DNA from: Aeromicrobium terrae
GTDB lineage: Bacteria; Actinomycetota; Actinomycetes; Propionibacteriales; Nocardioidaceae
Assembly: GCF_008039565.1 (NCBI RefSeq)
Contig: NZ_VDUX01000003.1
Location: forward strand, 124,001 to 188,000
Direction: 5' to 3'
DNA: 64,000 nucleotides
Part shown: piece after piece, positions 5,691 to 51,385 of the stretch
How positions within the stretch are numbered: the first letter of the stretch is position 1
How the letters are laid out: each line of letters opens with the position of its first letter
Made by a program: the position numbers and the translations under genes
The notes under the pieces: generated by a model
Database searches by the model: none
What the model saw: the letters and a program-made list of their open reading frames with translations, nothing else
Told to the model about the DNA's origin: nothing

Positions 5691-7892
5691 TCACTCCTGG
5701 GCGCTGGAGCGCTGCAGAGCCTGGCCCACCAGGCTGATGACCAGGTAGATCAGGGCCCCGACGCCCCAGGCGAGGAACGCCTCCTTGGTGGCCGCGTTGG
5801 CCCCGGAGAAGTCGAACACGTCCTTCAGCGGACCGACCAGAGCGTCGCACATGGACGACACCGGGTCGTAGATCGCGTTGCCCGCCTCCGCGCCGAGCGC
5901 GACGAGCAGGGCGCCGACGGCCAGCACGACCGAGCAGATGAGCCCGACGATGCCGACGAGCCCGGCGATCGCGGAGACCACCGTCCGGCCGTTGACCTTC
6001 CGCTTCTCCTTCGGCAGCGACGGCGGCTCCGGGACGTCGTCGACGGCGGTTGACGTCGACCGAGTGGTCTCGGCGGGCGACGTCCAGGTGTAGCGCGCCG
6101 GCATGTCCTCGACTGCGGGGACCAGCGCGGTGTCGTCGTCCCGGTCCGGGTCGGCGACGGGCTCGGGCTCGACCTGCTCGGTCGCTGCTGCCGCAGCCTC
6201 GGCGGCCGCGGCGTCGCGGGCGGCCTGTTCCTCCGCCTCGCGAGCTGCCTTGTCCTCGGCCTCCCGAGCTGCCTGCTCCTCGGCCTCGCGAGCAGCCTTC
6301 TCCTCGGCTTCACGGGCTGCCTTCTCCTCGTCGGCCTTGGCCTGCTCGGCCTCCCGGGCAGCCTGCTCCTCGGCCTCGCGAGCCGCCCTCTCCTCGTCGA
6401 CCTTCGCCTGCTCGGCGTCGCGCGCTGCCTTCTCCTCAGCAGCCCTGGCCTTCTCGGCCTCCCGAGCGGCCTTCTCCTCGGCCTGGCGGGCTGCCTTCTC
6501 CTCGGCGGCCTTCGCCTTCTCCGCGTCGCGGGCCGCCTTCTCCTCGGCCCGCTGGGCAGCCGCCGCCTCGGACGCGGCGGCCCGCTCGGCAGCGGTCCGG
6601 GCCTTGCGGCCCTTGGCCTCTGCACGCGCCTGCCGCTTGGCCTCCGCCTTGGCGGCCTTGGCCTCGTCACGCTCGGCACGACGCCTGGCCTTCTCGTCCT
6701 GACGGTTGGCCTTGGCGCGCTCCTTGGCGGCGTCGCGCTCGGCGCGGGCCGCTGCGCGCTCCTCCGCCGAGGGTGCTGCCACGGCGGCAGCGGCGGTGGC
6801 GACGTCGGCGACGTCGTCCGTGACCCCGTCGTCCTGGTGGTCCTCGTCGTGTGACGCGCGGCGCTCGGCCTTCTCCACGGCGCGCCGGCGGCGCGCCTCC
6901 TCCTTGGCCTCGGCGCGCGCGGCACCCGCAGCCGCACGGGCCTCCTCGCGCTCGCGTCGCCCGGCCTGGCGGGCGGCGGCGCGCTGGCGGCGCAGGTCGG
7001 CCGCCGACGGCGACTCGTCCGTGGCCTCGTCCGGGACGTCGTCGACCACGTCCGCAGGGATGACGGCAGTGGAGCCGGTGTCCTCGAGCACGTCGACGTC
7101 CTCGACCTCCTCGACACCGGCCTCGTCGACGACCTCGTCGTCCGTGCTGACGTCGTCGTCGACGCGGGAGCTCGCGCTCAGCAGCGCCGTGGCCGCGGCC
7201 ATGACCGACTCGATCGGCGGAGCGTCCGTGACCTCGGGCTCGTCGACCTCGTCGATCTCGTCGCGGTCACGACGGTGCGACCTCGTGGTCTCCGTGAGGT
7301 CTTCCACCGGCGCGGCGGCCTCACCCTGCCGGCGACGTTCGCGGGCCTCTTCCTTGGCGATCAGCTTCTGCTCGCGCGCCGCGGCCTTGGCGACCCGGGC
7401 CTCCTCGCGAGCGGCCGCCTTCGCCGCGCGCGCCTCGGCGCGCTCGGCGCGCGCCGCAGCCTTCGCCTGGGCCTGTTCGGCCTTCTGCTGGGCCTTGGCC
7501 TCGCGGCGGGCGGCCTTCTCAGCCTCCTTCGCGGCACGAGCCTCGTCGCGCGCTGCCGCCTGGGCAGCGGCCTGCGCCACCTTCTCGGCGTCGCGAGCCT
7601 CGCGCTGGGCGGCCTTCTCCGCCTCGTGGGCCTCACGCTCGGCAGCCCGCTCGGCCTCCCACGCCTCACGTTCGGCTGCCTGCTCGGCGTCACGCGCCGC
7701 CCGCTCGACCTTGGCGTCGGAGTCGTTCGCGGACGGCTCCGGCTCCTCGTCGGTCGACGAGTCCTCGGACCGGTCGGACGACGGTTCCGGCTCGTTCTCG
7801 GTCGCTGCTGCGATCGCCCCCGCGGTCAGATAGCTACTTGCGTCTGACCATGCGCCTTTTGGTCGGGGGGGCGAGTGCCCCGGACTCGTCAC
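5691..7892 (-). CDS. Ala/Glu/Arg-rich coiled-coil protein with two C-terminal membrane segments
   Basis: No named family recognised (733 aa from GTG 7892). Most of the protein is charged coiled coil built from short A-x-x-A-E/R repeats (KAAREAEEKAARDAE-like), broken near residues 195-300 by acidic, non-repetitive linkers. The last roughly 90 residues hold two hydrophobic spans (VVSAIAGLVGIVGLICSVVL and AFLAWGVGALIYLVISLVG), so it is probably anchored in the membrane by its C-terminus with the coiled coil in the cytoplasm. The GTG lies only three bases after GGAGG and overlaps the previous gene by 59 nt, so the start is uncertain; no other good start was seen nearby. A role with its coiled-coil partner in cell-pole or envelope organisation is a guess. 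Confidence 0.7.
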   Translation of the reverse strand: MTSPGHSPPRPKGAWSDASSYLTAGAIAAATENEPEPSSDRSEDSSTDEEPEPSANDSDAKVERAARDAEQAAEREAWEAERAAEREAHEAEKAAQREARDAEKVAQAAAQAAARDEARAAKEAEKAARREAKAQQKAEQAQAKAAARAERAEARAAKAAAREEARVAKAAAREQKLIAKEEARERRRQGEAAAPVEDLTETTRSHRRDRDEIDEVDEPEVTDAPPIESVMAAATALLSASSRVDDDVSTDDEVVDEAGVEEVEDVDVLEDTGSTAVIPADVVDDVPDEATDESPSAADLRRQRAAARQAGRREREEARAAAGAARAEAKEEARRRRAVEKAERRASHDEDHQDDGVTDDVADVATAAAAVAAPSAEERAAARAERDAAKERAKANRQDEKARRRAERDEAKAAKAEAKRQARAEAKGRKARTAAERAAASEAAAAQRAEEKAARDAEKAKAAEEKAARQAEEKAAREAEKARAAEEKAARDAEQAKVDEERAAREAEEQAAREAEQAKADEEKAAREAEEKAAREAEEQAAREAEDKAAREAEEQAARDAAAAEAAAAATEQVEPEPVADPDRDDDTALVPAVEDMPARYTWTSPAETTRSTSTAVDDVPEPPSLPKEKRKVNGRTVVSAIAGLVGIVGLICSVVLAVGALLVALGAEAGNAIYDPVSSMCDALVGPLKDVFDFSGANAATKEAFLAWGVGALIYLVISLVGQALQRSSAQE

Positions 7893-10320
7893 TCACCTCC
7901 TGGGGCGTTTCGCCCGGCGCGCCCTCGCTGGGCTGCTCGTCGCGGTCCTGCGTGTCCTCGGGTTCGTCGTCCGCGGGCCTCTCGTCGACGTACTCGTCGA
8001 CCTCGGGCTCGGCGTGGGTGCTGAGCGGGGTGTCCTTGCCGGTCTGGTTCGCGACGACGATGTGCGCCTGCGCGACCCGCTCGGCCTCCGCCTCGGCGGC
8101 GGCCACCCACTGCATGGCCGTGGCCTCCGCCTCGCGCAGCTTCTCCTCGACGGCGTCGCGCGCCTGCGCGACGGCCTCGGTGAGGCGCTCCTGCGCCTGG
8201 CGCTTGGACTCCGCGGTGACCCGCTCGGCCTCGGCCTGGGCGTCGGCGATCCGGCGCTGGGCGTCCGCCTCGGCCTTCTCGACCAGGGCCTTCGCGTCGG
8301 CCTCGGCCTTCGCGATGGCCGCGGCGGCGTCCTTCTCGGCCTGCTCGTGACGCTGCTCGGCGGCGATACGGGCGGCCTCGGCCTCCTCGGCCTGCTTCTT
8401 GGCCGCCTCCTCGCGCGCTGCGGCAGCCGCACGGGCGGCTTCAGCCGCCTCCGCGGCGACCCGCTCGGCCTCGGCCTGCGCCATGCGCACGCGCTCCTCG
8501 GAGACGCGCTCGGCCTCGGCGAGCTTCTCCGCCGCCTGGGCCCGCTCGATCTCGGCCTCACGGGCGATCTTCTCGGCCTCGGCGGTGGCCCGCTCGACGT
8601 GCGCCTTGGCGTCGTCGCGCTCGCGGGCGAGCTCTGCAGCCGCCGCCTCGTGGCGTTCGGCAGCCTCGGCGGCGAGGCGCTCGGCCTCGGCGCGGGCCGC
8701 GGCCAGCTTCTCCTCGGCGTCGCGCTCGGCGTCGCTCAGACGCACCGCGATCTCGAGGCGCTCGCGACGGGTCTCCTGCGACATCTTCTCGGCCTCGGCG
8801 AGCGCGGCCTCGATGTGACCCTTGGAGGTCTCCTCGGCCTCGCGGACGATGCGCTCGGCCTCGGCCTTCACCTCGGCGAGGCGGGCGTCGCCCTCCTCAC
8901 GCTCCTTGGCGAGCTGGGCCAGGGCGGCCTCGCGCTCTGCCTTGGCCTGCGCGGCGATCTTGTCGGCCTCGGCGCGAGCCTCGGCGATGCTCCGGCGGGC
9001 GTCCTCCTCGGCGGCCTCGGCACGCCGGGCGGCGGCTGCCTCAGCAGCGGCCTCGGCCTCGGCGAGACGCTGCTCGGCCCGCGCCTTGGCCTGGGCCTCG
9101 GCGTCGGCGAGCCGGCGCTCGGCCTCGGTCTGCGCCTCGTCGATGCGCTGCTGTGCCTGACGCTCGGCCTCCGCCTTGGCGGCGGCGACGCGCTCGTCAG
9201 CCTCGCGCTGGAGCTGGGCGATCTTGGCGGCCGCGGCGGCGCGCTCGCGCTCGATCTCCTGCGTGACGCGCTCGGCCTCCTGACGTGCGGCGTTGACGCG
9301 CTCCTCGGCGGCCTGCTCGGCGGCCTTCAGCTTGGCGGCCGCAGCGGCACGCTGGGTGGCCTCGTCGGCCTCGATGCGGGCGGCGGCCTCCGCCCGCTCG
9401 CGGGCTGCCTCCTCCATGAGGCGCGTGGCCTCGGCACGAGCGGCGGCGACGCGCTGCTGGGCGGCGGCGCTGGCTGCGGCGAGCTTCTCCTGAAAGCTCG
9501 ACGCGTTGGCGTTGGCGTCGTCGGGAGCGGACGGGGCCGCCTCCGACGCGGTGCTCACGGGCTCCGGCTCGGGCTCAGGCTCACGGGTCGGCTCGGGTCG
9601 CGACACCGCCACGGGCTCCGGCTCCGGCTCGGGCTCAGGGCTGGGCTCGGGCTCCGAGACCGCCACCGGCTCGGGCTGCGGCTCGGGCTCGGGGGCGCGG
9701 GGGGCCTCCTCGGGCCGGGTCTCGGCGACGGGTTGCTCCTGGGGCTCCTCGGCCGCGACGTCGCCGGCGGTCATGCTGGAGCCGCGGAGCGCGGACCGCT
9801 GCTCCGGCGTGGGCTCGTCCTTGGCGACGGGGCTCTTGAGGTCGGAGAGGCTGAAGGAGCGGGTCTCCTCGGCCGGCGCCTCGGCGGCCGGCTGCTCCGC
9901 GGGAGTCTCGGCGGTCTGCTCGCTCGGCTGCTCAGCAGGCTCGTCCTCGTCGTGCCGGTCGCGGGCGTGCCGCTTGGACGCGGCGAAGGCCTTGGCGGCA
10001 GCGCGCTCGCTGCGGCGCTTGTCGGCGGCCGCCTGACGGGCGGCGCGGGCCTCGGCGCGTCGGGACCGGGCGGACGCCCGGTCGGCATGACCGTGGTCGG
10101 AGTCGTCGTGCTGCGCGGCCTCCGCGTCGTCGAGGGCCGCGTCGCGCTGCGGGCGCGGCTCCGACGGCGTCTCGGCGGCGGAGTCAGCAGTGCCCGTGCT
10201 GTCGGCGTCGGAGTGGGACGCCGCCTCGGCGGCCTCCTCCGCGGCGAGCATCTCCGCTGCTTCCTGCAACGGGTCATGCGGTCGCCGGCCGGATGGCTGG
10301 TTCGAACCTGAGTCGGTCAT
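7834..10320 (-). CDS. Long Ala/Glu-rich coiled-coil protein, DivIVA/Scy-like composition
   Basis: Cytoplasmic coiled-coil protein of 828 aa; no specific family recognised. I start it at ATG 10320 (MTDSGSNQPSGRRPHDPLQE), with AGGGAG two bases upstream; the longer frame to 10374 has no such site. The order is an acidic N-terminus, a PEPEPEP-rich linker around residues 225-280, then about 500 residues of near-continuous coiled coil with recurring EAERVAAEA-type blocks, and a short basic tail ending RRMVRRK. Its end overlaps the next gene by 59 nt in another frame, so the pair is coupled. Composition resembles polar-growth scaffold proteins of actinobacteria, but that is resemblance only. Confidence 0.8.
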   Translation of the reverse strand: MTDSGSNQPSGRRPHDPLQEAAEMLAAEEAAEAASHSDADSTGTADSAAETPSEPRPQRDAALDDAEAAQHDDSDHGHADRASARSRRAEARAARQAAADKRRSERAAAKAFAASKRHARDRHDEDEPAEQPSEQTAETPAEQPAAEAPAEETRSFSLSDLKSPVAKDEPTPEQRSALRGSSMTAGDVAAEEPQEQPVAETRPEEAPRAPEPEPQPEPVAVSEPEPSPEPEPEPEPVAVSRPEPTREPEPEPEPVSTASEAAPSAPDDANANASSFQEKLAAASAAAQQRVAAARAEATRLMEEAARERAEAAARIEADEATQRAAAAAKLKAAEQAAEERVNAARQEAERVTQEIERERAAAAAKIAQLQREADERVAAAKAEAERQAQQRIDEAQTEAERRLADAEAQAKARAEQRLAEAEAAAEAAAARRAEAAEEDARRSIAEARAEADKIAAQAKAEREAALAQLAKEREEGDARLAEVKAEAERIVREAEETSKGHIEAALAEAEKMSQETRRERLEIAVRLSDAERDAEEKLAAARAEAERLAAEAAERHEAAAAELARERDDAKAHVERATAEAEKIAREAEIERAQAAEKLAEAERVSEERVRMAQAEAERVAAEAAEAARAAAAAREEAAKKQAEEAEAARIAAEQRHEQAEKDAAAAIAKAEADAKALVEKAEADAQRRIADAQAEAERVTAESKRQAQERLTEAVAQARDAVEEKLREAEATAMQWVAAAEAEAERVAQAHIVVANQTGKDTPLSTHAEPEVDEYVDERPADDEPEDTQDRDEQPSEGAPGETPQEVSDESGALAPPTKRRMVRRK

Positions 10321-48977: not shown

Positions 48978-49636
48978 TAGCTCGTCTTCTCCTCCGGCGC
49001 GGCCGGCTCGATCGTGTTGTTGAAGGCGTGCAGGGTCTCGATGTCGATCGGCCCGGCACGGAGCACGCGCGGCGTGGAGCTGGTGGCGTCGAGGATCGTG
49101 GACGGGACGCCGGACGGGCTCGGCCCGCCGTCGAGGTAGACGGCGACGGACTCCCCCAGCATCGCCTCGGCCTCGTCGACCGTGGTGGCCGCGGGTTCGC
49201 CGGTGAGGTTGGCGCTGCTGACCGCGAGCGGTCCGGTGACCTTGAGGAGCGCGAGGGCACGGGCGTCGTCGGGCATCCGGACGGCGACGGTCTGGTGGGT
49301 CTCGCCGAGGTCCCAGGTGAGCGACGGCTGCTGCTTGCAGATGACGGTGAGCGGACCGGGCCACAGCGCCGTGGTCATGGCGCGCAGCCAGGACGGGACG
49401 TCGGAGCCGAGCGCCTCGAGCGTGGTGGGGGCGCCGACGAGGACCGGCGGCGGCATCTGGCGGGTGCGGCCCTTCGCCTCGAGCAGCCGCTGGACGGCCG
49501 CCGGCGAGAACGCGTCCGCGGCGAGGCCGTAGACCGTGTCGGTGGGCAGCACCACGAGCTCCCCGCGCTGCAGCGCCTCCTGCGCCGCCTCGATGCCACG
49601 GTCGAGCTCGTCGTCGTCGGCGCAGTCGAACCTCAC
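48977..49636 (-). CDS. tsaC: L-threonylcarbamoyladenylate synthase (TsaC/Sua5/YwlC)
   Basis: Enzyme of 219 aa that makes threonylcarbamoyl-AMP for the t6A modification of ANN-decoding tRNAs. The YrdC fold is clear: LVVLPTDTVYGLAADAFSPA, then LLEAKGRTRQMPPPVLV, LWPGPLTVICKQ, VAVRMPDD and PLAVSSANLTGEPA. It lacks the long C-terminal Sua5 domain. GTG 49636 has no good ribosome site; TAGTCT ends six bases upstream, so it is probably leaderless. It is separated from prmC, its usual neighbour, by 10.7 kb. Confidence 0.94.
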   Translation of the reverse strand: MRFDCADDDELDRGIEAAQEALQRGELVVLPTDTVYGLAADAFSPAAVQRLLEAKGRTRQMPPPVLVGAPTTLEALGSDVPSWLRAMTTALWPGPLTVICKQQPSLTWDLGETHQTVAVRMPDDARALALLKVTGPLAVSSANLTGEPAATTVDEAEAMLGESVAVYLDGGPSPSGVPSTILDATSSTPRVLRAGPIDIETLHAFNNTIEPAAPEEKTS

Positions 49637-49642
49637 CCCCGC

Positions 49643-49648
49643 AGACTA
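49643..49648 (-). promoter_or_regulatory. -10 box of tsaC at the edge of the repeat array
   Basis: TAGTCT (minus strand) lies six bases before the GTG at 49636, giving a leaderless start. The expected -35 region falls inside the first 22-bp repeat. Confidence 0.45.
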
Positions 49649-49655
49649 CCGATCC

Positions 49656-49743
49656 GCTGACGAGAGACTTCCGGCACGCTGACGAGAGACTTTCGGCACG
49701 CTGACGAGAGGATTCCGGCACGTCGACGAGAGGGTTCCGGCCG
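49656..49743 (+). repeat. Left array: four tandem copies of a 22-bp repeat
   Basis: Exact 22-bp period, copies at 49656, 49678, 49700 and 49722. Each begins GCTGACGAGAG (the last GTCGACGAGAG) and the first three end TTCCGGCAC or TTTCGGCAC. There are no spacers, so this is not a CRISPR array. The unit is the reverse complement of that in the array at 50744-50897. Confidence 0.95.
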
Positions 49744-49798
49744 GCATCCTGTGGACTCGTCACTCGCCACGTCGGGGCGATCTCACTTCGATGGCCCG

Positions 49799-50725
49799 AT
49801 GGATTCACTGATCAACGACGGCCATCCGTTCCTGACCGTCGACGAACGAACAGCCGGAATGGCCCCACGCCAGGTTCGCGCCGCGGTGGCACGGGGCGAG
49901 CTCCGTCGGATGTATCGCGGATGCGTCGTCGACAACCGAGTCCCTGACTCTCGTCGTCTGCGCGTCGAAGCTCTCGACCTCATCAAGCCCAAGCACGGCG
50001 TCGCGTGCAACGAGACCGCCGCGTTCCTCTACGGGATCGACGCTTACAAGCCCTCGGAGCGCTTCGAGCTTCGGCCGTTCTTCGTCGTCCCACACGCCAC
50101 GCCACGCATCGAACGGCCGAACGTTCGGTGTCGACAAGCGCTGATCGATCACGAGGACCTCGTCGAAGTGGAGGGAATCGTGGCCACGACTCCGGTTCGG
50201 ACGACGTCGGATCTTCTCCGAGGTCTTTACCGCCCGTACGCGCTTGCCGCTGCCGACGCCTTCGCACGGGCCGGACTGATCCAGCGTGACGAGCTGATCG
50301 ACTACATCGGACGGTTGAAGGGATATCGGTGGATCGTCCAGGCCCGTGGGTTGGCGGTGCTCGTCGACGGCAGGGCCGAGTCGCCGGGCGAGTCGTGGCA
50401 GCGGCTCCGCATCCATGACGCCGGCCTGCCACCGCCTGACCTGCAGGTCGAGGTCGCGCTGCCCGACGGTTCGCTGCGTCGGCTCGACCTGGCCTACCCC
50501 GAGCTCCTCATCGGTTCCGAGTACGACGGCACGATCTTCCACAGCCACGTCGACGACGTCGCTCACGACGTCGAGCGTCGACGCGAGCTGACCGAGATCT
50601 ATGGATGGCGATGGGTCAACGGGACGCGAGCGCGGATCTTCGGCCCCGATCCGTCGTTCGAGATCGAGCTCGGTGAGCTGCTGGGGATTCCTCCCCTGCT
50701 TCCGCGCCGATGGGGTGGCCGCTGA
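49799..50725 (+). CDS. AbiEi-like winged-helix plus DUF559/Vsr-like nuclease-fold protein flanked by inverted repeat arrays
   Basis: A 308-aa protein started at ATG 49799. Residues 1-60 resemble the AbiEi-type winged-helix domain (MAPRQVRAAVARGELRRMYR). Residues 195-275 resemble a Vsr/DUF559 restriction-like nuclease: E198 in SPGESWQRLR, D230 in RRLDLAYPE, and E241-x-D243 in GSEYDG, spaced like a PD-(D/E)xK site. Similar proteins are scattered through actinobacterial genomes as orphan AbiEi antitoxin or DUF559 genes; no toxin partner is present. Codons are less GC-rich at third positions than in neighbours (gttcgg, cgatcac, cttccac), suggesting transfer. It sits exactly between two opposed 22-bp repeat arrays. 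Activity is unproven. Confidence 0.75.
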   Translation: MDSLINDGHPFLTVDERTAGMAPRQVRAAVARGELRRMYRGCVVDNRVPDSRRLRVEALDLIKPKHGVACNETAAFLYGIDAYKPSERFELRPFFVVPHATPRIERPNVRCRQALIDHEDLVEVEGIVATTPVRTTSDLLRGLYRPYALAAADAFARAGLIQRDELIDYIGRLKGYRWIVQARGLAVLVDGRAESPGESWQRLRIHDAGLPPPDLQVEVALPDGSLRRLDLAYPELLIGSEYDGTIFHSHVDDVAHDVERRRELTEIYGWRWVNGTRARIFGPDPSFEIELGELLGIPPLLPRRWGGR

Positions 50726-50743
50726 TCTCTCTCGTCGCGTCGC

Positions 50744-50897
50744 GTGCCGGAACTCTCTCGTCAGCGCGCCGGAACTCTCTCCGCAGCGCGCCGGAACTCT
50801 CTCGTCAGCGCGCCGGAACTCTCTCGTCAGCGCGCCGGAACTCTCTCCTCAGCGCGCCGGAAGTCTCTCCTCAGCGAGCCGGAACTCTCTCGTCAGC
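50744..50897 (-). repeat. Right array: seven tandem copies of the 22-bp repeat, inverted
   Basis: Exact 22-bp period, copies starting at 50744, 50766, 50788, 50810, 50832, 50854 and 50876. Read on the plus strand most copies begin GCGCCGGAACTCTC and end TCAGC; copies 3 and 4 are identical. A degenerate eighth copy (50722-50743) overlaps the end of the nuclease-like gene. The array ends two bases from the stop codon of the next gene. Confidence 0.95.
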
Positions 50898-50899
50898 GG

Positions 50900-51385
50900 T
50901 TACGTGACGCCGTGGACGACGAACGCGATGGCGAGGAACTGGGCGGTGCGGCCGACGAAGACCATCGTCAGGAAGAGCCAGCGGGGCTGGCGGGAGGCGC
51001 CGGCCAGGATCGTGACCACGGCGAGGGGCGGGATGCCGAACAGTGACGACGCCATCACCGTGGCCGCTCCGAGGTAGGGGCGGTCGAGCAGGGCGAGCAT
51101 CTGGTCGCCGAGCCGGCGGACGCGGGCCGAGAACGTCGAGCGGGGCGGCTTGCGCTCCACCGAGCTGCGGACCTTGGAGGAGCCGCGGCGCACCAGCTCG
51201 AACACGATCGCCTTGCCGACCACGGTGCCGACGCCGAGCGACAGGATCGTGACGACCAGCAGCGACCGGGGCACGAACGCACCCATGCCGATGACGTAGA
51301 CCTCGGCGTTGAGGAAGACCGGCAGGATCCCCGAGCCGATGCCGAAGGCGAACGCGGCGCCGAGAAGTGCCAGGTCGCCGCCCAT
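50900..51385 (-). CDS. VTT/DedA-like small membrane protein
   Basis: A 161-aa membrane protein. Spans: LALLGAAFAFGIGSGILPVF, SLLVVTILSLGVGTVVGKAI, YLGAATVMASSLFGIPPLAV, then a last one near the C-terminus (FVGRTAQFLAIAFVVHG). The reentrant-type Gly/Pro pattern (SSLFGIPPLAVVTILAG) resembles VTT-domain (YqaA-like) proteins. ATG 51385 follows AGGG by eight bases. It begins 28 bases after mceF, so it may be the last gene of the mce operon. Function unknown. Confidence 0.7.
   Translation of the reverse strand: MGGDLALLGAAFAFGIGSGILPVFLNAEVYVIGMGAFVPRSLLVVTILSLGVGTVVGKAIVFELVRRGSSKVRSSVERKPPRSTFSARVRRLGDQMLALLDRPYLGAATVMASSLFGIPPLAVVTILAGASRQPRWLFLTMVFVGRTAQFLAIAFVVHGVT

Follow-up and report, generated by a model that had tools for sequence, protein, structure and literature searches.

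In this study, we analysed a window of 64,000 nucleotides from Aeromicrobium terrae (NZ_VDUX01000003.1, positions 124,001 to 188,000), in which a single gene for a nuclease-like protein lies between two opposed arrays of a 22-bp unit (table 1). The initial annotation had counted four units to the left of this gene and seven inverted ones to its right, and both direct reading and Tandem Repeats Finder bear this out (49655-49741, period 22, 4.0 copies, score 125; 50738-50898, period 22, 7.4 copies, score 266). The left unit is the reverse complement of the right one, and the units abut without spacers. A chance origin of the repeat is ruled out: its 19-base core has 63 matches in the genome of the window, against none for a reversed control. 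The gene is bordered by tsaC on the left (TIGR00057) and by a VTT-domain gene on the right (a match below the Pfam cut-off), and an alignment of the family favours the ATG start over a GTG at 49751. At the inner edge of the upstream array stands a TGTGGA box, which we take to resemble the actinobacterial DnaA box. Of 40 family loci, 35 have TGTGGA no more than 160 bp upstream, versus 5 of 116 control pieces; the box (window 49750) mostly reads CCTGTGGAY, and in most loci of the family 45-51 bp separate it from the start codon. No known RNA family was detected in 49400-51200 at E ≤ 1. Elsewhere in the window, many overlapping tandem repeats of 6-108 bp (6209-9902) probably code for a repetitive protein.

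Table 1. Features of the repeat-enclosed gene; positions are those of the window
Feature	Position	Strand	Description
Left array	49656..49743	+	Four 22-bp units, forward orientation, CGCTGACGAGAGACTTCCGGCA
TGTGGA box	49747..49756	+	Inner edge of upstream array; T of TGTGGA 49 bp before start codon
Nuclease-like gene	49799..50725	+	308-aa AbiEi-like/Vsr-like protein; ATG 49799 by family alignment; stop codon ends at 50725
AbiEi-like region	49799..50368	+	About residues 1-190; proposed unit-binding part; PADLOC and fold match
Vsr/EDxHD-type nuclease fold region	50381..50683	+	About residues 195-295
Putative catalytic residues	E198 50390-50392; D230 50486-50488; E241 50519-50521; D243 50525-50527; H248 50540-50542	+	
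Right array	50744..50897	-	Seven 22-bp units, inverted orientation

From its sequence and structural model, the protein appears to combine two parts, one AbiEi-like and DNA-binding, the other a Vsr/EDxHD nuclease fold with a conserved E-D-ExD-H set, and nuclease activity is predicted. The AbiEi-like N-terminal part, already proposed in the initial annotation, is upheld by PADLOC (E 6.8e-12; residues 33-188 counted from the GTG at 49751, or 17-172 from the ATG) and by Foldseek, whose top PDB match for an AlphaFold2 model built on 50 sequences (mean pLDDT 92.7, pTM 0.90) is the AbiEi antitoxin 6y8q (6y8q_A, E 2e-5); Pfam AbiEi_4 scores 24.3 bits against a cut-off of 25. By sequence the Vsr-like part is weak (Pfam REase_MTES_1575, E 0.15; PDB profile matches 3hrl, E 0.099, and 3r3p, E 0.35). 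The next Foldseek matches are Vsr (1vsr, 1cw0) and the homing endonuclease domain of I-Bth0305I (3r3p_B), the latter with the highest TM-score to target among the nuclease-fold matches (0.63); since this match carries E 0.3-0.7, as do the Vsr ones, membership of the EDxHD/Vsr superfamily by fold is probable rather than certain. Of the Vsr-like E-D-ExD site read earlier from the sequence, the residues stand, but the fold matches have poor E-values. Across 50 diverse sequences E198 and D230 never vary, while E241, D243, and H248 are each retained in at least 90%. At seven positions of the catalytic region 42 of the 50 are identical to the window; three of the other eight are cut short by the match, and five carry substitutions, namely E241 to D in two Williamsia, D243 to F in two Nocardioides, and two changes in Sanguibacter. 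NCBIfam holds no family for the protein at E ≤ 1, and its Pfam, NCBIfam, and PADLOC matches include no transposase family. The gene is under purifying selection, with dN/dS of 0.06-0.16 in six close pairs.

Dispersed units and their link to the gene

When the genome of the window (G000) is searched with the 19-base core at up to two mismatches, the 63 matches fall at 11 loci, each of the form (+)n(-)m, in which forward units lie to the left of inverted ones. Nine of these have a short centre without a gene; the remaining two are the window, with the nuclease gene, and L004, which encloses a hexapeptide-repeat (gamma-carbonic-anhydrase-like, gamma-CA) gene, enclosure by arrays being therefore not unique to the nuclease gene. 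At up to one mismatch the same core is absent from 48 other Aeromicrobium genomes. Among 31 array loci, 29 contain both orientations, with every forward unit to the left of every inverted one; a codon-composition test places 15 of the 31 between convergent genes, 15 between tandem genes, and one between divergent genes. The folding energies of six gene-less arrays range from -69 to -107 kcal/mol (z -9.1 to -10.3), although such z-scores say nothing on function, since any inverted repeat folds well.

Close homologues of the protein (E < 1e-40) occur in 19 of 49 Aeromicrobium genomes, twice in five of them, and each of the first 19 close loci has a tandem array of 19-22 bp on at least one flank. 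Left and right flanks have reverse-complement 10-mers in common in 23 of 24 genus loci (4-53 per locus, against 0-1 direct matches). The exception, L029 (about 36% identity), has arrays of opposite polarity and without shared reverse-complement 10-mers; in this most divergent member of the genus, 19-bp arrays lie at 70-133 and 1750-1869. Extended to 74 distinct family loci, the survey found an array with a helical-turn period on both flanks in 50, on one flank in 20, and on neither in four, that is, in 70 of 74 (52, 21, and 4 of 77 before three duplicates were removed), the period windows (19-23, 30-34, and 40-46 bp) having been set after the first arrays were seen. These loci combine the 24 of the genus, 21 of 77 from a wider survey, and the 32 best matches from other genera (12 given as loci, 20 fetched), less the three duplicates; left out of the 77 were 13 Kribbella loci, counted apart, 15 repeats of genus loci, and 28 more distant matches, few with arrays. 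Because of how the loci were chosen, the sample leans to close relatives.

Homologues without flanking repeats do exist: arrays were found in none of the 13 Kribbella loci (L133, L135, L138, L140-L142, L144-L147, L153, L155, L162) and in none of 11 loci of distant DUF559 proteins. The Kribbella homologues are perhaps domesticated, or array-free ancestors. Among 58 control loci at tsaC and gamma-CA genes, seven have an array, six of these belonging to the same system and one being unrelated. Array periods are 21 bp (34 cases), 22 bp (64), 32-33 bp (10), 41-44 bp (16), 63 bp (2), 19 bp (1), and 24 bp (1), and correspond, except for 19 and 24 bp, to two, three, four, or six helical turns. In two Nocardioides loci with the D243 to F change (L152 and L154), the 42-43-bp units are internally palindromic, TGACCCGTC...GACGGGTCA, and REP-like.

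The units are also dispersed in a lineage-specific manner. CTGACGCGTGGGTT, taken from the gene flanks of five genomes, has 18, 11, 28, 64, and 73 copies in those five and none in the remaining 44 of the 49 genus genomes. The B unit has 34, 19, 6, 5, and 1 copies in five genomes with the B gene; its pattern is absent from two further carriers, G030 and G047, whose units differ, and a single copy is present in each of G003, G034, and G041, for which the matches listed include no B gene. Williamsia flank units number 91 and 31 copies in their own genomes (reversed control, 0 and 1), and a 32-bp unit of the Nocardioidaceae genome G260 has 207 copies there and 0-2 in ten others. A match to the protein at E ≤ 1e-20 is present in 267 of 294 sampled Nocardioidaceae genomes, a threshold loose enough to admit distant DUF559 proteins, around which no arrays would be expected. 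Gene and arrays are thus linked in cis, and the units are dispersed in trans, in inverted order and at a whole-turn period. The initial annotation had compared the layout to REP sequences with their RAYT transposase, with another enzyme class, and had reasoned that a unit spread widely with no tie to the gene, or homologues devoid of repeats, would speak against it. The comparison has gained ground, as the link recurs in relatives, the unit is dispersed, and empty sites exist; the absence of any gene from 9 of the 11 array loci in the genome of the window counts partly against it, but within the genus the tested units are numerous only where the gene is carried. The array-less homologues of Kribbella and the distant DUF559 proteins do count against it. 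Since in many soil actinobacteria the repeat flanking the gene is species-specific and scattered through the same genome, the AbiEi-Vsr gene and the repeats look like one system.

Persistent sites, changing units

In 14 congeners a gene of the close family lies within about 160 bp of relA, each with arrays of its own sequence. In a fifteenth, G008, the gene occupies the same site, and the far array is separated from it by about 4 kb of other DNA that contains a transposase-like frame. In G000 the gene is instead at tsaC, and relA holds a gene-less array of the genome's own unit. Of 30 relA loci 27 were readable: 11 have gene and arrays, two have arrays without an adjacent gene (G000 and G008), and in 14 no array was seen by eye. 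The name relA rests on ACT and RelA_AH_RIS matches; the labels DUF349-like, livF-like, and ISL3-like come from translations only. A second subfamily (46-51% identity) adjoins an ABC-transporter ATPase gene and has units of a second type. At tsaC, 18 of 30 loci have a gap of 29-92 bp between tsaC and the VTT gene, and three more show no array, although their alignment is truncated. The filled sites hold the gene element in G000, inverted arrays of the second type in G021, G002, and G048, two direct copies of its own unit in G030, and a different GC-rich repeat in G008, G023, G039, and G047. Different unit types have thus come to occupy this spot, which most of the genomes seen leave empty. The GC-rich repeat upstream of tsaC (L189, L203, L206, L211) shares a long block among the four genomes that carry it.

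Insertion polymorphism of the element was looked for in the close pair G006 and G008. Ten loci of G006 were compared with their presumed counterparts in G008: arrays are present in both at three sites, the G008 stretch is unit-free at L309 (668 bp, the left flank only partly alignable), and the other six have no counterpart in the G008 stretches compared. In the reverse comparison, three of four G008 loci are shared with G006 and one has no counterpart. Arrays at shared sites differ in unit number, and no clean target-site duplication was noticed by eye. As many array sites are common to several species, movement seems slow. The initial annotation had taken a lower third-position GC as consistent with arrival by transfer. 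The composition is as described (GC3 of 0.78 vs 0.96-0.97 for three neighbours), but it is a trait of the family, as 19 relatives show 0.67-0.93; with this and the conserved relA site, recent transfer is not supported. A mobile element on a plasmid or phage was rejected, as tblastn at 1e-10 matched nothing among 72,556 plasmid and 50,697 phage records.

Although the sites are conserved, their units are not. The consensus units of different sites within one genome are nearly identical (0.96 over 11 sites in G000, 0.95 over 17 in G047), whereas at four site pairs of G000 with G047 or G008, paired by both flanks, unit identity is 0.67-0.78, which does not improve on the 0.71 found over all pairs. 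Thus, even at shared sites each genome is homogeneous in its own unit: sites persist and units are replaced genome-wide. Unit identity also tracks protein identity (Mantel r 0.51 over 33 loci, reached in 0 of 5000 permutations, the best being 0.22), a correlation that shared descent alone could give.

Opposed arrays also enclose ordinary genes, such as a carbon-nitrogen hydrolase gene in G047 and DUF308, YqeY-like, and flavin-reductase-like genes in Williamsia. Among 27 genomes whose flanks were viewed, G000, G021, and G038 carry the gamma-CA gene between arrays, made of three different units; the array-enclosed loci are L004 (2540-3386), L230, and L235. In G000 this gene is turned round relative to its usual neighbour, an NCS2-type permease, as would be expected if the inverted arrays had recombined. 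Simple insertion of an element does not explain such arrangements, and of all features of the system the least well explained is how a resident gene comes to have a forward array on one side and an inverted array on the other.

A candidate enzyme-repeat system

Overall, we think it somewhat probable that gene and repeats form one system comparable to the REP/RAYT pair, built on another enzyme, in which the repeats would serve as copying signal or enzyme target; this is the leading reading of them. The AbiEi-like part would bind the 22-bp unit, with several molecules lined up along each array, as the period of a whole number of helical turns suggests. A Streptococcus AbiEi is reported to bind 23-bp inverted repeats cooperatively, and a relative to bind four (PMC7319586), and by analogy a 22-bp unit at whole turns is what an array of AbiEi-type sites would be expected to look like. 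For the steps after binding, we infer that the tethered Vsr-like nuclease would nick or cut in or beside the array, and that repair templated by other arrays of the genome would copy units into new intergenic sites, alter unit number, and homogenise the units of a genome; such repair may also turn a gene-less array into a gene-bearing one, or the reverse. Enzyme specificity and unit sequence would drift together, so that each lineage ends with its own unit. Such a scheme would account for the observations economically. In its fullest form, for which we see the balance as even, the hypothesis is that of a repeat-keeping nuclease, a chromosomal AbiEi-Vsr enzyme that recognises its own phased repeat and cuts or nicks it, with repair between arrays leading to genome-wide concerted evolution and slow spread, and thus a second, independent invention of the REP/RAYT arrangement. 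If so, each species would rewrite its whole set of intergenic arrays as the specificity of its enzyme drifts, and a REP/RAYT-like arrangement would be common in Nocardioidaceae and reach Williamsia.

An unlikely alternative is a domesticated system of DNA architecture or regulation, whose protein coats the phased arrays and bridges their forward and inverted halves as an insulator, an aid to bidirectional termination, or a nucleoid factor, the nuclease being minor or devoted to array upkeep. Periods of 21/22 and 32 bp, equal to two and three helical turns, would suit such a role, as would the 15 of 31 array loci between convergent genes and the reported nature of AbiEi proteins as DNA-binding autoregulators of 23-bp inverted repeats (PMC7319586), and the low dN/dS and conserved sites fit a host function; yet the nuclease residues are strongly conserved, and a pure regulator alone leaves the genome-wide replacement of units between species unexplained. 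We regard as improbable a homing-type selfish gene whose nuclease would cut array-like or empty alleles in incoming or sister DNA and have gene and arrays copied in by repair. The model fold does resemble I-Bth0305I, whose EDxHD homing endonuclease family is described in PMC3943268, and the gene stands at relA in relatives but at tsaC in G000, whose relA holds a gene-less array. However, within the genus 15 of 16 subfamily-A genomes keep the gene at one site, arrays without the gene are far more numerous than those with it, the presumed target makes up the enzyme's own flanks, and phages and plasmids gave no match.

The stable folding of the six gene-less arrays, and the reported presence of Vsr-like domains in RNA-binding FASTK proteins, would agree with a system acting on RNA, in which transcripts of the inverted arrays would form long hairpins at gene ends and the Vsr-like domain would process them; still, array pairs up to about 1.1 kb apart, or 5' of a gene, are needless for 3'-end hairpins, and the closest fold of the N-terminal part binds DNA, which makes this reading quite improbable. 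That arrays and gene merely share permissive intergenic hot spots is barely credible: arrays do also surround unrelated genes, but the counts already contradict such a coincidence, with arrays at 70 of 74 family loci versus none of 11 loci of distant DUF559 proteins and 7 of 58 controls, and genomes without a unit at the gene flanks are without it genome-wide.

Compared with known systems, the candidate enzyme-repeat pair shares features with several. Like the AbiEi antitoxin and actinobacterial DUF559 proteins (MTES_1575 REase), the protein has an AbiEi-like N-terminal fold and a DUF559/Vsr-like C-terminal motif, respectively, but here both are fused in one protein, and, unlike those of AbiEi, the repeats are dispersed genome-wide, beyond the gene's own promoter. 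Of the features of Type IV AbiE systems the AbiEi fold is present, whereas the ORF list places no gene for the AbiEii nucleotidyltransferase toxin next to the nuclease gene, its neighbours being tsaC and the VTT-domain gene. The homing endonuclease I-Bth0305I and Vsr have a related nuclease fold; in contrast to them, the protein studied here has no intron or intein, is tied to a repeat family, and carries an AbiEi-like DNA-binding part. Type III/II CRISPR and integron attC arrays also place a nuclease or recombinase beside repeats, but the present arrays, judged from sequence, differ in their lack of spacers, inverted halves, and dispersed copies. An insertion sequence with cargo-less derivatives (MITE) would leave empty sites and target-site duplications; empty sites are seen at relA and tsaC, and an unsystematic look by eye noticed no duplication. 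In the open-access literature, judged by titles and the beginnings of abstracts, we recognised no description of these repeats or of the gene-repeat pairing.

Few bacterial dispersed repeats have a dedicated enzyme, and how REPs spread is itself described as an open question (PMC8266576). Finding the same layout around an unrelated enzyme would demonstrate that pairs of this kind have arisen repeatedly. Binding and homogenisation can both be put to direct test, since the units span whole helical turns, each genome has a single unit type, and the units at shared sites have changed. The system would also provide a role for some members of a very common group of Nocardioidaceae proteins that are so far without an assignment. 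The closest parallel is the REPtron (REP, BIME, or REPIN with TnpA-REP/RAYT), as its features are given in PMC8266576 and PMC8049555. Both have one enzyme gene, mostly in one place, bordered by inverted short intergenic repeats; many gene-less copies across the genome in inverted pairs; enzyme and repeats that vary together by lineage; and an enzyme not seen on plasmids or phages. The differences lie in the enzyme, AbiEi plus a Vsr-like fold here and a HuH tyrosine transposase in the REPtron, and in the repeat, since a REP is a palindrome headed by GTAG and the Aeromicrobium unit CGCTGACGAGAGNNTTCCGGCN is neither (palindromic units of 42-43 bp occur only in the two Nocardioides loci), and since units here form tandem arrays of whole helical turns. 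Thus, the AbiEi-Vsr/repeat pair appears to work like a REPtron but is none: its enzyme and its repeat architecture depart from the features that define one.
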